A stretch of DNA of 37,812 nt from Polyangiaceae bacterium (lineage in GTDB: Bacteria > Myxococcota_A > Polyangia > Polyangiales > Polyangiaceae): the NCBI GenBank assembly GCA_025937835.1, contig JAICQO010000069.1, positions 1 through 37,812 of the forward strand, read 5' to 3'. Both the position numbers and the translations under genes were made by a program. A model generated the notes under the pieces. The model made no database searches. It was not told the origin of the DNA and saw only the letters and a program-made list of their open reading frames with translations. Positions 13,576-18,260 of this stretch are shown here, piece after piece; the first letter of the stretch is position 1, and every line of letters starts with the position of its first letter.

Positions 13576-13710
13576 CGCGCGAGCATAGTCGCGACCGGGT
13601 ACCGGTTCCAGCGCTGCCCAATCGACCGGGGACGGAGTTTTCTTGGGTCGCGAAATCCGCTTGAGACGGAGCGCTTGCGCGGCGCGGAGGATCAGCCAAC
13701 TCTTCGCGCC

Positions 13711-16599
13711 ATGAAGGTGCGTGCGGTGCTCGTGTTGCTGCTCGGAATGATCGCTCTGGCGATCGCGAGCTGTTCTTCGGACAAGAGTGATGGGAAAGAG
13801 GCAGGTTGCGATAACCCCGCACATACGGTGTGCGGCGACTTCTGCGTCGATCTCAAGACCGATCCGAAGAGCTGCGGCTCGTGCACGAAGGTCTGTTCCG
13901 CAACAGAGGAGTGCAAGAACGGCACCTGCACCGCCAAGCCCACCACCGAGTGCCCGATCGGTCAGGCCAAGTGCGGCGGCACCACCTGCATCGACATTCA
14001 GACGAACTCGATGAACTGCGGCCTGTGCGGCAACGCCTGCGGCTCCGCTCAAGCCTGCGTCGGCGGCCTATGCACCTGCCCCGGCGGGCAGATGGCGTGT
14101 CTCAAGACCTGCGCCAACGTCCAAACCGATCTCGCGAACTGCGGCTCGTGCGGTCGCGCCTGCCGGACGGGTGAAAACTGCGTGGCCGGTGCCTGCACCT
14201 GCCAGGACGGCCTCACCCAGTGCAGCGGCGCCTGCGTCGACCTCCAGTCGAACGGCGCGAACTGCGGCAGTTGTGGAATGGCCTGCAGCGGAGAGCTGGT
14301 CTGCGACAACGGCGCGTGCGCCGCGGGGTGCTCCGGTGGCCGCATGAAGTGCGACCAGAGCTGCGCCGATTTCCAGACCGACCCGGCCAACTGCGGCGGA
14401 TGCGGCAACAAGTGCCCCGCGGGCGGCGCTTGCAACGCGGGTCAGTGTAGCTGTGCGACGGCCGGCCAGGCCCTGTGCGGCGGCGTCTGCGTCGACACCC
14501 AGTCGAGCGGCGAAAACTGCGGCAGCTGCGGCAACCGCTGTCCGACGGGCGCGGTCTGCAACGGCGGAACCTGCGCTTGCCCCGCGGGCCAGATGCAGTG
14601 CGGAACGCAGTGCGTGGACCTCAAGACCTCGCAGCAGCACTGCGGCGCTTGCAACTCGGTTTGCGGCACCACCTGCTCGAACGGCACCTGTATGGGCGGC
14701 GCGGGTGGCGCCGGCGGTGGCGGCGGTGCGGGTGGCTCGGGTGGCGGCGGCGGCGCTGGCGGCTCGGGTGGCTCGGGCGGCGCGCCTCAGACCGGCTGCG
14801 CGGGCCCCGAGGTGATCAACGATTTCGAGACCGGCACCAGCGCCATGAACCCCTCTGAAGGCCGGATGGGCTGGTGGTACGTGTTCCACGACGACATGAC
14901 GGGCACGATCTCGCCGCCCAAGATCATGGAGGCCATCGCCGCGGCCGAGCTACCTGCGGCCGAGCAGACCGAATGCAACAAGTACGCGCTGCACGTGACC
15001 GCGAGCGGTCATCCGCAGTACGTCGGCTTCGGCGGCACGTTCTTGCCCGCTCCCCCGCCGAGCGAGCTCAAGAGCCCGTACTCGGTCGAGAAGTACACGG
15101 GCATCTCGTTCAAGATCAAGGCCGGCTCCGGTACAGCGCCGCCCGTGTTCTTCGAGATGGCGACCAAGGAAAATCAGCCCCCCACTTCCGGCGGCACGGC
15201 CATGAACGACGCCGTGGACACCTACAACACGCGCGGCAAGTTGATCACGGGCATCACCTCGAGCTGGCAGACCATCACCGTGCCGTTCTCGACGCTCGCC
15301 CCGCGCTACTTGCCCGACGGCACGGGTGACGCGTGCGGCGCTGGCGTCGTCTGCGAAGCGCCGCGCTTCAACCCCGCCAACGTACTCGGCTTCCAGTTCG
15401 CAGTTTACGAACAGTTCATGACGCTCGGAGCCAACGGCGCCTTCGACCTCTGGATCGACGACGTGAAGTTCGTCACGGGCGACGAGGGCATCCCGACGCT
15501 CGCGCAGAGCGAGGCCGGAGCGCTCAAGTTCCCGCGCGACGGCATGGTGGGCACCTGCACCAAGCCGGCCGGCGCCACGGGCAAGCAGCTGATCGAGATG
15601 TTCCAGCGCTGGAAGCAGGTCTTCGTCGTCGCGGACGGCGGCAACCTGCGCGTGCAGCGCATCGAAGAGAGCAACGACACGGTGTCCGAAGGCATCGCCT
15701 ACGGCCTGCTGATCGCCGTCTACTTCAACGACAAGGACCTGTTCGACAAGCTCTACGCCTACTGGAACGCGCACCTCGCGCAAGGCAAGCTCATGACCTG
15801 GCGCATCGGTGGTCAGGGCGGCTCGGGCGCCGCGACCGACGCCGACGAAGACACCGCGTTCGCGCTGCTCCAGGCCGACAAGCAGTGGCCCGGCGGCAAC
15901 TACAAGATGCAGGCGCAGCAGGTGATAAACGACATCTGGCAGTACGAGGTCGCGGGCACGGTGCTGAAGCCGGGCAACAACTTCGGCAACCAGGACCTGT
16001 TCAACCCCTCGTACTTCTCACCCGCGTGGTACCGCGAGTTCAAGAAGGTCGACACCGCGCACGACTGGGACGGCGTGATCGCCACCGGCTACAGCTACAT
16101 CAACCAGATCGCCGGCGCGAACGGCCTGGTCCCCGCCTGGTGCTCGAACGCCTGCAGCAGCGCTGGCGGCGGCGGCTACGAAGACGCCAACATGTACCAG
16201 TACGACTCGCACCGCATGCCCTGGCGCCTCGGCCTCGATGCGTGCTGGAACAACAACGCCGACGCCAAGGCCTACGTGCTCAAGACCACGAACTTCTTCG
16301 CCGGTCTCGCCAACAACGGCATCGGCACGATCTTCGACGTGTACAGCACCACCGGTCAGCCAAAGTCGGGCGCCGCCGCCAACTCGGCCTCGATCGTCGG
16401 CACCGCCGCGATCGGCGCCATGGTGACGGCCGGCTCGAACGCCGGCCACAAGGCGTTCCTCGACCGCGGCTACCAGTTCGTGCTCGACGCGGCCTACGTC
16501 CCGGATCCCACAACCCGCGCCGACGCGTACACGTACTACAACGCAACCGTGGGCCTACTGATGGCGCTCACGATGTCGGGGAACTTCCAGATCCTCTGA
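13711..16599 (+). CDS. GH8 family glycoside hydrolase, lipoprotein with cysteine-rich repeats
   Basis: A 962-residue secreted enzyme. Residues 1-20 form a lipoprotein signal ending in AIASC. Residues about 35-325 hold seven or eight cysteine-rich repeats of the pattern CxxxCVDLQSNxxNCGxCG, as in myxobacterial surface proteins. A Gly-rich linker covers about 329-360. Residues about 365-590 look like a beta-sandwich carbohydrate-binding module (WIDDVKF near its end). The C-terminal 360 residues are GH8: VSEGIAYGLL with the acid Glu660, and ATDADEDTAFALL (708-720), which fits the GH8 signature, then DSHRMPWRLGLD. GH8 enzymes cleave beta-1,4-glucan, xylan, chitosan or licheninan; the exact substrate is open. 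The ATG at 13711 was chosen because it starts the signal peptide, although no strong ribosome binding site is next to it. Confidence 0.92.
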   Translation: MKVRAVLVLLLGMIALAIASCSSDKSDGKEAGCDNPAHTVCGDFCVDLKTDPKSCGSCTKVCSATEECKNGTCTAKPTTECPIGQAKCGGTTCIDIQTNSMNCGLCGNACGSAQACVGGLCTCPGGQMACLKTCANVQTDLANCGSCGRACRTGENCVAGACTCQDGLTQCSGACVDLQSNGANCGSCGMACSGELVCDNGACAAGCSGGRMKCDQSCADFQTDPANCGGCGNKCPAGGACNAGQCSCATAGQALCGGVCVDTQSSGENCGSCGNRCPTGAVCNGGTCACPAGQMQCGTQCVDLKTSQQHCGACNSVCGTTCSNGTCMGGAGGAGGGGGAGGSGGGGGAGGSGGSGGAPQTGCAGPEVINDFETGTSAMNPSEGRMGWWYVFHDDMTGTISPPKIMEAIAAAELPAAEQTECNKYALHVTASGHPQYVGFGGTFLPAPPPSELKSPYSVEKYTGISFKIKAGSGTAPPVFFEMATKENQPPTSGGTAMNDAVDTYNTRGKLITGITSSWQTITVPFSTLAPRYLPDGTGDACGAGVVCEAPRFNPANVLGFQFAVYEQFMTLGANGAFDLWIDDVKFVTGDEGIPTLAQSEAGALKFPRDGMVGTCTKPAGATGKQLIEMFQRWKQVFVVADGGNLRVQRIEESNDTVSEGIAYGLLIAVYFNDKDLFDKLYAYWNAHLAQGKLMTWRIGGQGGSGAATDADEDTAFALLQADKQWPGGNYKMQAQQVINDIWQYEVAGTVLKPGNNFGNQDLFNPSYFSPAWYREFKKVDTAHDWDGVIATGYSYINQIAGANGLVPAWCSNACSSAGGGGYEDANMYQYDSHRMPWRLGLDACWNNNADAKAYVLKTTNFFAGLANNGIGTIFDVYSTTGQPKSGAAANSASIVGTAAIGAMVTAGSNAGHKAFLDRGYQFVLDAAYVPDPTTRADAYTYYNATVGLLMALTMSGNFQIL

Positions 16600-16609
16600 C
16601 AGAGAGAGA

Positions 16610-16694
16610 GGGGGGTGCCCACCCCCCACGTGCTCGGCTTCGCCTGCGCGCGTGGCCCCTCCCAAACGCGGGCCTGCGGCCCGCGTGGGAGGGG
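16610..16694. terminator. Two hairpins downstream of GH8
   Basis: The first hairpin pairs GGGGGGT (16610-16616) with ACCCCCC (16621-16627). The second is long: CCCCTCCCA (16656-16664) pairs with TGGGAGGGG (16686-16694) and CGCGGGCC (16667-16674) with GGCCCGCG (16678-16685), with a TGC loop and only an AA bulge. Neither has a clear T tract, so they may act as mRNA-end stabilisers or Rho-assisted stops for GH8, or may form the left edge of the repeat block that follows. Confidence 0.5.
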
Positions 16695-16705
16695 AGCTCG
16701 GACGG

Positions 16706-16944
16706 GCGATCGCTTACGCGGAGGGCGATCGCTTACGCGAAGGCGATCGCTTACGCGAAGGCGATCGCGATCGCTTAAGCGGAGGGCGATCGCGAAGGCG
16801 ATCGCGAGGGCTTGGGCGATGGGGATCGCGAGGGCTTAGAGCGATCGCTTTCGCGCACGCGATCGCTCTCGCGGATGCGATCGCCTTCGCGGTCGCCTTC
16901 GCGGTCGCCTTCGCGATCGCCTTCGCCATCGCCTTCGCGATCGC
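16706..16944. repeat. GCGATCGC palindrome array with mirror-image halves
   Basis: Twelve perfect copies of the octamer GCGATCGC lie at 16706, 16725, 16743, 16761, 16767, 16786, 16798, 16841, 16859, 16877, 16913 and 16937, with more imperfect ones between. Spacing in the left part is mostly 18-19 bases (unit GCGATCGCTTACGCGAAG) and in the right part in multiples of 12 (unit GCGATCGCCTTC). The left half carries GCGATCGCGAAG and the right half its reverse complement, so the array as a whole is a large imperfect inverted repeat. Reading frames through it give only low-complexity Ala/Ile/Phe or Ala/Lys repeats and are not credible genes. The stretch 16600-17136 contains no gene I can support. Confidence 0.8.
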
Positions 16945-17010
16945 CTTCGCGATCGGCCTGCCAACGGTGGAAGCTTCGCCTGCTGGCTTTTCGATTGTGC
17001 CGGCGTGCTC

Positions 17011-17077
17011 GGCGGCGTCCAGGCCGCTTCGCGCCGGCTCCGCCGGTGACCGCTGCGCGGTCAGCCTGGACACCGCC
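17011..17077. other. Compact four-way-junction fold (candidate structured RNA or DNA element)
   Basis: The 67 bases fold with almost no unpaired base outside loops. The closing stem is GGCGG/CCGCC plus GTCCAGGC (17017-17024)/GCCTGGAC (17064-17071), with a single C-A mismatch. Inside it are three directly abutting hairpins, each with a 3-base loop: CGC-TTC-GCG, CCGGC-TCC-GCCGG and TGACCGC-TGC-GCGGTCA. Another hairpin, GGCGC-TGAA-GCGCC, lies at 17088-17101. The element ends 59 bases before the four-helix-bundle gene. It is not a tRNA: loop sizes and conserved bases do not fit. Confidence 0.6.
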
Positions 17078-17136
17078 TGCGCGCGCCGGCGCTGAAGCGC
17101 CGTGCCTGCAGGTCGCGGGCGCGGAAGGCGGAGCAG

Positions 17137-17463
17137 ATGGCTCTTCAAGTTGCGGAGGTCAGTTTCGAGATGATCGCGGCGTTGCGGCCCTTGGTGGCGC
17201 GGATCCGGCGGCACGATCGGTCGCTTGCGGACCAGTTGGTGCGCGCGGCAAGCAGCGTGGCGCTCAACATCGGCGAGGCGGATGTGTCGGATCCTGGCAA
17301 CCAGCGAGCGCGGTTCTTTACCGCCGCGGGGAGCGCAAACGAGTCGCTGGCGGCGCTCCGGGTTGCGGTCGCCTGGGGCTACATTCCGGAAGCTGATGCC
17401 GTGGAAGGTTCGGCGTTGCTCCGGCGCATCGTCGCGATGCTCTGGAAGCTGGCTAGGCGCTAG
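17137..17463 (+). CDS. Four-helix-bundle protein (23S rRNA intervening-sequence family)
   Basis: A 108-residue all-helical protein matching the S23/intervening-sequence family: LADQLVRAASSVALNIGEAD in helix 2, RARFFTAAGSANESLAALR in helix 3, and a C-terminal helix LLRRIVAMLWKLAR. Members were first found inside insertions in 23S rRNA of Leptospira and Coxiella and are related in fold to Avd of diversity-generating retroelements. They form pentamers that probably bind nucleic acid. There is no rRNA or reverse transcriptase here. The ATG is preceded by GGCGGAG. Upstream lie the four-way-junction element and the GCGATCGC array. The 3' end overlaps the convergent nucleotidyltransferase gene by 11 bases. 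Confidence 0.85.
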   Translation: MALQVAEVSFEMIAALRPLVARIRRHDRSLADQLVRAASSVALNIGEADVSDPGNQRARFFTAAGSANESLAALRVAVAWGYIPEADAVEGSALLRRIVAMLWKLARR

Positions 17464-18028
17464 CGCGTTCGAGAAGGGCCGCGATGCCGAGGCGCGCGGC
17501 CCACGTCTCCAGGTACGCGCGATCAATCTGGTCGCGGCTCACTCGCAGGACCGAGACGATGTCGCGCCACTGTTTGTCGGAGACTTCTCCGCCTGCTCGG
17601 TACCAGAGGAGCTTGCGCAGGACGGTGTCTTCGGGCGCCTTGATGACCAGGGTCTCGCCGCTCCTGCGGACCTGACGCGGCAGGCGCCGAGAGAATTCAG
17701 CCTCGTCGTAGGGCTCGTAGCCACGACCGAAGAAGTCGACCTTGGTGATGAGCGGTAGGTAAAAGGCGTTGGCCGAGCTGGCTCGACGGACCGCGTCGCG
17801 CAATTGCTCGGGATCGATCTCGAAATCTGGCCCCAGCTCGGCGCAGAACGCTGCGACGCGGCCGAGCGGCAGGGAGATCACGAAGTCGATATCGTTCGTG
17901 GAGCGCGGGTCCCCTTGAAGCGAGCTGGCGACGCTGCCTCCTACGAAGTACTCGGCGCCCACGGCTTCGAGCGCCCGCGCCACCCGCAGGGCGATGTCGA
18001 GCGCGTCGCTATCGGTCGTGGACGGCAC
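17453..18028 (-). CDS. Nucleotidyltransferase of the pol-beta superfamily (toxin-antitoxin-like)
   Basis: A 191-residue protein with the minimal nucleotidyltransferase signature: Gly30-Gly31-Ser32, then Asp46-Ile-Asp48 (STNDIDFVIS). A third acidic position may be in TKVDFF. The rest is helical (APEDTVLRKLLWYRAGG). Similar stand-alone enzymes act as toxins or antitoxins (MNT, AbiEii and MenA types) by adding nucleotides to RNA or protein; which applies here is unknown. The start is a GTG at 18028, 20 bases inside the end of the upstream small gene, with AGGA ahead of it, so the pair is translated together. A longer frame exists upstream but overlaps the partner gene. It converges on the four-helix-bundle gene. 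Confidence 0.8.
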   Translation of the reverse strand: MPSTTDSDALDIALRVARALEAVGAEYFVGGSVASSLQGDPRSTNDIDFVISLPLGRVAAFCAELGPDFEIDPEQLRDAVRRASSANAFYLPLITKVDFFGRGYEPYDEAEFSRRLPRQVRRSGETLVIKAPEDTVLRKLLWYRAGGEVSDKQWRDIVSVLRVSRDQIDRAYLETWAARLGIAALLERASA

Positions 18029-18260
18029 GCGAATCCTGACCGAAGAGGTGCTCGGCGACTTCGGGGCCGTAGAGGCGCTCCGTGAGGAGCCGCCGAACTT
18101 GCTCGTCGGTTGCGTTCGGGTGCGAAGAACGAATGGAGGACTCCGCAAGCTCGCGCACCGAGCGCGTCAACCGGAGGGAGATCGCGAGTCGCTCGATGGG
18201 GCCACGCTCGGCGAGGAGCGCGTAGTAGCGCTCTTCGGCTTCGGGCGTGGTGTCTCGCAT
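18009..18260 (-). CDS. Small helical protein, partner of the nucleotidyltransferase
   Basis: An 83-residue charged, helical protein that I do not recognise as a named family (MRDTTPEAEERYYALLAERG; later EQVRRLLTERLYGPEVAEHL). The ATG start is at 18260. Its end overlaps the nucleotidyltransferase start by 20 bases. A small gene directly before, and overlapping, a nucleotidyltransferase is the usual layout of toxin-antitoxin modules, so it may be the cognate antitoxin or substrate protein (inference from arrangement only). It is divergent from the HTH-like gene at 18399. Confidence 0.7.
   Translation of the reverse strand: MRDTTPEAEERYYALLAERGPIERLAISLRLTRSVRELAESSIRSSHPNATDEQVRRLLTERLYGPEVAEHLFGQDSRAVHDR

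Follow-up and report, generated by a model that had tools for sequence, protein, structure and literature searches.

The window analysed here, a 37,812-nt stretch of a Polyangiaceae bacterium genome (genome G000, contig C105), carries at positions 16706 to 16958 a dense, mirror-image array of hexamers that forms part of a cassette with a gene of the PF05635 (IVP/S23) family. This linkage is the main point added here to an earlier note on the same DNA. In the reading that we favour, and consider probable, the array makes up the 5′ repeats of a small dispersed cassette, in which a hexamer array, a leader of ~180 nt containing a hairpin, and an IVP gene follow one another, and the cassette is a mobile, probably selfish relative of intervening sequence (IVS) elements; in relatives it may carry two tail-to-tail IVP genes and arrays on both sides. 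Cassettes with other repeat units occur elsewhere in this genome, in Myxococcota and in Planctomycetota. The same anatomy is found at unrelated sites within and between genomes, cassettes present in one congener are missing from another, and both the hairpin and the protein bear the marks of selection. We infer that the cassette is, or formerly was, mobile. The parts of the window copy are as follows.

16706..16958, no strand assigned: mirror-image tandem array of GC-led hexamers with 12 GCGATCGC octamers (octamer count, inverted pairs, lag-6 periodicity)
16706..16835, + strand: left arm of the mirror array (inverted pairs I1, I3, I5, I9)
16841..16959, − strand: right arm, with units reverse complementary to those of the left arm (inverted pairs I1, I3, I5, I9)
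16993..17090 (about), + strand: GC-rich leader hairpin, kept in cassette copies (C3, C10, C19, C127, C83, G005)
17137..17463, + strand: gene for a 108-aa four-helix-bundle protein of the IVP/S23 family (PF05635 match)

The array is built from hexamers

Twelve perfect GCGATCGC octamers lie within 16706-16944 and six in the remainder of the window, and none of 100 dinucleotide shuffles of the window reached the observed 18 (mean 6.1, sd 2.5, maximum 12), which confirms the earlier note's report of twelve octamers clustered in 239 bases. The octamer is far from equally dense across the genome: a 200-kb sample holds 50 copies (0.25 per kb), and the array is ~200 times denser than this. The accompanying remark that only isolated copies occur elsewhere holds for the window and fails for the genome, where further clusters stand on contigs C3 (both ends), C10, C113 and C226, mostly at IVP loci or contig ends.

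The true repeating unit is a GC-led hexamer, of which the octamer is a by-product. Self-identity over 16701-16960 is 0.57, 0.60, 0.58 and 0.58 at lags 6, 12, 18 and 24 and only 0.18-0.32 at the remaining lags within 4-29, and the array can be read as GCGATC GCTTAC GCGAAG and so on, with one-base slips; an octamer arises wherever GCGATC precedes another GC-led hexamer. At lag 6 the window array (locus L024) scores 0.65 in an 84-bp window, below the threshold of 0.70 used for strong arrays below, and none of 1000 control positions in 200 kb of the same genome reaches 0.60. Its halves are reverse complementary, as had been proposed, although imperfectly so: 16783-16835 is 85% complementary to 16907-16959 (53 nt), and 16721-16785 is 72% complementary to 16884-16948 (65 nt). 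These inverted halves, together with an RNA fold of 16600-17136 at z = -12.8 against shuffles, uphold the proposal of a long hairpin, and the array does look like the product of repeat expansion that the note had listed among its possibilities.

The IVP gene and its copies in the same genome

The gene downstream of the array matches PF05635 (23S_rRNA_IVP) with E=1.2e-11 and 45.1 bits (cut-off 33.8), residues 3-103 of the protein covering positions 3-105 of the 106-position profile. Our IVP profile A2 in turn matches PDB 2GSC (XCC0516) at E=2.3e-13; XCC0516, an IVP protein of Xanthomonas, is known to be a homopentamer (PMC4990558). Four full IVP genes are present in the genome (C10, C19, C105 and C127), with a fifth cut by the end of C113, and the window protein is 64-75% identical to the own-genome copies and those of the genus mate G005. 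Median dN/dS (nonsynonymous to synonymous substitution rates) is 0.22 for the four own copies; in G040, where IVP copies are 83-91% identical in DNA, it is 0.15 for IVP-A (5 copies) and 0.07 for IVP-B (7 copies). By these ratios the IVP protein is evidently under purifying selection, and its copies keep coding.

A repeat array stands beside 5/5 of the own IVP genes, 5′ of the gene at C105, C127 and C19 and 3′ of it at C10 and C113. GCGATC-type units occur at C105 and C113, and also at the contig ends of C3 and C226, C3 carrying both array and hairpin at its end; the other units are 14 bp long at C127, a mixture of 6-13 bp at C19 and ~19 bp, with only 2.3 copies, at C10.

The leader hairpin is kept by compensatory change

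The ~180 nt between array and gene hold a hairpin that is common to the window, C3, C10, C19, C127, C83 and G005; in the window's genome it is found in 4/4 IVP copies with a readable leader, as well as at C3 and C83. In the alignment of these seven sequences, 6 of the 35 hairpin pairs show compensatory changes on both sides. Pairing holds in 94.5% of alignment cells, compared with 30-45% when the partner strand is slid, where the structure was derived from the alignment used for the test, which favours it over the slid versions; none of 500 shuffles scored as high on any of five pairing measures. Judged by these substitutions, selection keeps the hairpin pairing. On the IVP-sense strand a U.G pair is invariant (7/7) and two more G.U pairs occur in 5/7 sequences; these would be A.C mismatches on the other strand, and the leader hairpin is therefore likelier to act as RNA than as DNA. 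More widely, folding of the 130 nt upstream of IVP gave z below -3 at 21 of 65 loci with enough flank, compared with 1 of 80 random stretches. A hairpin with compensatory changes also lies at G000:C83:19139-19247 (L043) with no IVP match nearby, and it may be a decayed copy or a solo hairpin.

Cassettes in relatives

IVP matches were found in 32 of the 59 genomes searched, the window's own included, and number 30 in G038, 17 in G040, 13 in G043, 12 in G039 and 5 each in G000 and G005. The G040 cassette spans ~1.2 kb and runs from a CAGTGC-type array through a hairpin and IVP-A to a converging IVP-B with its own hairpin and array. Array polarity follows cassette orientation in 8/8 G040 cassettes with arrays; a ninth fragment (L087) has no array. 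Tail-to-tail IVP pairs, from a few to ~80 bases apart, were seen in G040, on C84 and C85 of G017 and on C30 and C54 of G043, and the paired genes of G040 belong to two different IVP subfamilies.

In G038, 11/11 loci read have arrays with a period that is a multiple of 6, built from genome-typical units such as GCGGAC and CCGCTC. Units at other loci differ (CAGTGC, GCGGAC, CCGCTC, TCGGTT and others); homologous arrays are made of other units, and the GCGATCGC octamer itself is therefore not conserved. In Polyangium the array usually ends ~200 nt 5′ of IVP, a near-constant distance. Of 36 loci flanked by arrays on either side, 16 share 8-mers directly between the two arrays and 8 in inverted form, with 12 unclear; the mirror array of the window sits before its open reading frame (ORF), not around it. 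A second dispersed intergenic repeat, in G040 and G049, carries short hexamer tracts (L082, L086, L122, L124, L234, L238) and ends near CACCTACTCCTCGA and CACCGGTTGACGCAGA; it may be the cassette's non-coding partner. At the 26 loci where a crude gene call covered the neighbours on both sides, these were convergent at 8, divergent at 2 and co-oriented at 16, with some calls plainly wrong (the window, L084). As the calls behind the 8/26 convergent pairs are unreliable, we make no claim of an insertion rule for convergent genes.

Arrays are associated with IVP genes

An array was counted as strong where the best-scoring 84-bp window within 700 bp of the gene reached a lag-6 self-identity of 70% or more. 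This measure was chosen because low-score TRF finds weak arrays in 12% and 28% of control positions; the 0.70 threshold was set after the TRF output had been seen. Strong arrays lie at 38 of 80 IVP loci, these being the best 80 of 148, with several loci per genome and many flanks cut by contig ends. Random positions yield 0/1000 in 200 kb of G000 and 9/1000 in a 200-kb stretch of G048 that contains one array, and among the other lags from 4 to 11 only lag 7 reaches the threshold, at 2/80 loci. When one locus per genome is taken, plus the four own, 13/33 carry a strong array, compared with 2/30 Y1_Tnp loci from the same relatives (Fisher p=0.003).

Within single genomes, measured over whole loci, the association can be closer. 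In G048, a single contig, 7/7 loci read (of 9) reach 0.70, one barely (0.71), with the whole 2.3-kb locus measured; at 7 arrays per Mb the chance per locus is about 1-2%. All 7 loci read (of 15) reach it in Polyangium fumosum, 6/7 (of 14) in Polyangium sp. 6x1, 5/5 in the Planctomycetota metagenome-assembled genome (MAG) Zod_Metabat.340, 1/4 in the Planctomycetota MAG CSMAG_1592 and 3/7 (of 11) in the 'Proteobacteria' MAG F1-120-MAGs226. In G028, 2 of 10 loci read (of 11) reach the threshold at lag 6 and one more at lag 7; six score 0.64-0.69 and one has no array. A window-like mirror-image hexamer array without IVP also stands in G048 (L259, ~1048-1195; G048:C1 near 6,514,349), followed by TTTTCTTTT at a gene end, and resembles a giant terminator-like hairpin.

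Presence and absence between congeners

Genome G049 is of the same genus as G040 and has no IVP match. Five G040 sites could be compared, the other four loci (L081, L083, L085, L087) ending at contig ends and being excluded, and at 5/5 of these sites G049 keeps both flanks and lacks the entire cassette with its arrays. The G049 and G040 sites measure 13 vs 1159 bp at L080, 167 vs 1051 at L084, 52 vs 1203 at L082 and 28 vs 632 at L088; at L086, a complex site, G049 is shorter by 1.17 kb. At L080, L082, L086 and L088 the difference may reflect either gain in G040 or loss in G049.

The surroundings of the window copy

The window copy lies outside rRNA, with a GH8 gene on its left and an ORF of the opposite strand on its right, and 16400-17600 gave no rRNA match. 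Rfam matches over the same interval were all below gathering scores, and a known RNA family was set aside. Two further features lie on its left.

13675-16599: GH8 gene, left neighbour (profile match)
16606..16704, + strand: dispersed GC-rich repeat, left cassette edge in the window copy, directly 3′ of the GH8 stop (copies elsewhere in the genome)

The repeat contains an inner hairpin (I24, 16655-16697). It has a 97% copy at G000:C226:78886-78975, likewise directly before an array, and a 78% match at G000:C58:1906-1968, and may be part either of the cassette or of the insertion site. The protein encoded at 13675-16599 combines a STIG1-like stretch (residues 48-87) with a C-terminal GH8 domain. 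On the right, the minus-strand ORF 17453-18148 has no Pfam match and is found in other context in two genus mates, at 73% and 69% DNA identity.

Weighing the mobile cassette against its alternatives

Several observations weigh against a mobile cassette with a hexamer end. No empty site was found for the window cassette, as no searched genome of the genus keeps both neighbours. At L084, G049 retains GACCCAAGCTAGATCACACTGA, which matches the cassette interior, and that copy was therefore lost rather than never gained. No target-site duplication was visible by eye at the four clean breakpoints, and neither a transposase nor a reverse transcriptase (RT) is linked to the cassette, the G040 cassettes read whole carrying IVP genes only. 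A classical transposon or insertion sequence was rejected on these two grounds, the lack of a linked transposase in G040 cassettes and of duplications at the four breakpoints; whatever enzyme copies the cassette would not be a linked, recognisable one. Strong lag-6 arrays are missing from 42 of the best 80 of 148 loci. Within this set no arrays occur at IVP loci of Bdellovibrionales, Legionellaceae, Calidithermus and Bacteroidales, and the array therefore belongs to part of the IVP family only. In the window's own genome C10 and C127 score only 0.42-0.45 at lag 6, with periods of ~19 and 14. Finally, of the 7 arrays in a 1-Mb sample of G048, 5 lie more than 700 bp from any IVP, the mirror-image array of L259 among them, so that arrays occur without the gene too.

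The last of these points is what would be expected if the arrays were pre-existing hexamer tracts, used as insertion sites or tolerated as landing pads, with the element proper consisting of the hairpin and the IVP gene or genes. We regard this as a possible explanation, if clearly a less probable one. Short array matches number ~30 in G049, which has no IVP match and keeps short hexamer tracts at 3/5 empty sites (L082, L084, L086), but no clear array is left at L080 or L088. Units are mostly locus-specific in G048 and G028 (shared in 2/20 and 6/20 comparisons across loci), as landing pads would allow, whereas one unit is common to nearly all cassettes in G040 (29/30) and G038 (11/12 cross-locus pairs). 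The polarity of G040 arrays (8/8) and the near-constant spacing in Polyangium also tie the array to the cassette.

It is rather unlikely that the unit is a host regulatory or structural module, such as a 3′ hairpin, a terminator or a site of RNase III processing, with its copy number reflecting duplication of something useful. Strong purifying selection on IVP, covariation of the hairpin, the mirror-image array that precedes TTTTCTTTT at the end of a gene in G048 and the rarity of cassettes between divergent genes (2/26 by the crude gene call) would all suit such a module. Its distribution, however, is patchy, with 27 of 59 searched genomes lacking IVP, 5/5 tested cassettes are missing in a congener, and the window copy contains no terminator-like site, on which ground a simple terminator was rejected.

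A retro-element, in which IVP would act like the Avd subunit of diversity-generating retroelements (DGRs) and the arrays would be tails added by a reverse transcriptase in trans, is improbable. PF05635 resembles Avd (PMC10053308), and RT is weakly associated with IVP (16/19 vs 8/17 genomes, Fisher p=0.03). Yet G000, G005 and G039, all drafts, carry 5, 5 and 12 IVP matches with no RT (PF00078) match; as far as these drafts show, RT-driven copying is not required. G049 has neither an RT nor an IVP match.

In REPIN-RAYT systems, palindromic repeats scattered between genes go with a single family of small protein genes, and the cassettes look similar in having such repeats beside a gene. That RAYT, a Y1 transposase, moves REP- or REPIN-like palindromes in trans here, with IVP as a bystander, is nonetheless very improbable: Y1_Tnp (PF01797) has 0 matches in G000 (completeness 95.8%), G005, G039, G040 and G048, all with IVP cassettes, and arrays stand at only 2/30 Y1 loci. 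It was rejected for the window's genome on the lack of a PF01797 match. Least credible of all is a HIP1-like octamer array, chance or an assembly artefact: GCGATCGC is identical to HIP1, the cyanobacterial octamer, but here it is a clustered by-product of hexamers in a Polyangiaceae host, homologous arrays carry other units, and the architecture recurs on long contigs, in a single-contig genome (7/7 loci read) and in Polyangium isolate genomes. HIP1, which the earlier note mentions, is therefore not supported, and the assembly artefact that it names is unlikely.

A possible mechanism

For the mobile cassette, active movement, binding by IVP and a role of the array can be combined in a conditional scheme. 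The leader would be transcribed in the IVP sense and act as a structured RNA. IVP, predicted from XCC0516 to form a homopentamer, may bind structured nucleic acid and help in the copying or tolerance of the cassette. The array would serve as an end tract prone to slippage; its copies, whether direct or inverted, would allow it to expand and to form hairpins, and would permit loss of the cassette through recombination. On this account, the most economical one, the whole would be a free-standing relative, selfish or domesticated, of the IVS elements found within 23S rRNA genes.

Comparison with known systems

No report of IVP genes with tandem arrays was found in the literature searched, which included few subscription papers and no preprints. 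Tentatively, the cassettes could represent a new class of bacterial mobile element, with a non-enzymatic four-helix bundle (IVP/S23) as sole protein and hexamer tracts as ends, present in Myxococcota and at least one Planctomycetota lineage, with rRNA IVS elements and DGR Avd as derived or sister forms. With multi-copy intergenic cassettes, presence or absence between congeners and culturable Polyangium hosts, both mobility and the nucleic-acid target are directly testable, and in myxobacterial genomes long simple-repeat arrays, and breaks in assembly, have in the cassettes a defined source.

With HIP1 the window array shares the octamer GCGATCGC, which is here clustered, a by-product of a hexamer array and found in another group of organisms. 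With REPIN-RAYT systems the cassettes share dispersed palindromic intergenic repeats linked to one small gene family; their protein, however, is a four-helix bundle and not a Y1 transposase, and the repeats form long tandem arrays of period 6 whose units are specific to a locus or a genome. DGRs have in Avd a subunit that is described as resembling PF05635 in sequence and structure (PMC10053308), but no RT, template repeat or variable repeat was seen with the cassettes, and RT was not found in some carriers.

Also close are the IVS elements of Coxiella, Leptospira and others, which carry an S23/IVP ORF and lie in 23S rRNA genes. The IVS element has been called selfish, and what IVS elements and S23/IVP proteins do, and where they come from, is described as unclear (PMC4990558). 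Both systems use the same IVP/S23 family, with a strong stem beside or around the ORF. The cassettes, in contrast, are intergenic, outside rRNA and multi-copy, have a separate leader hairpin and arrays of up to several hundred bp, and in some relatives carry two tail-to-tail IVP genes. Purifying selection on their protein is clear; the Coxiella ORF, by comparison, is said to be decaying (PMC4990558). The Coxiella IVS also has short heptamer tandem repeats of strain-variable number just before its S23 ORF (PMC4990558), an arrangement that is an independent echo of the cassette layout seen in the window.
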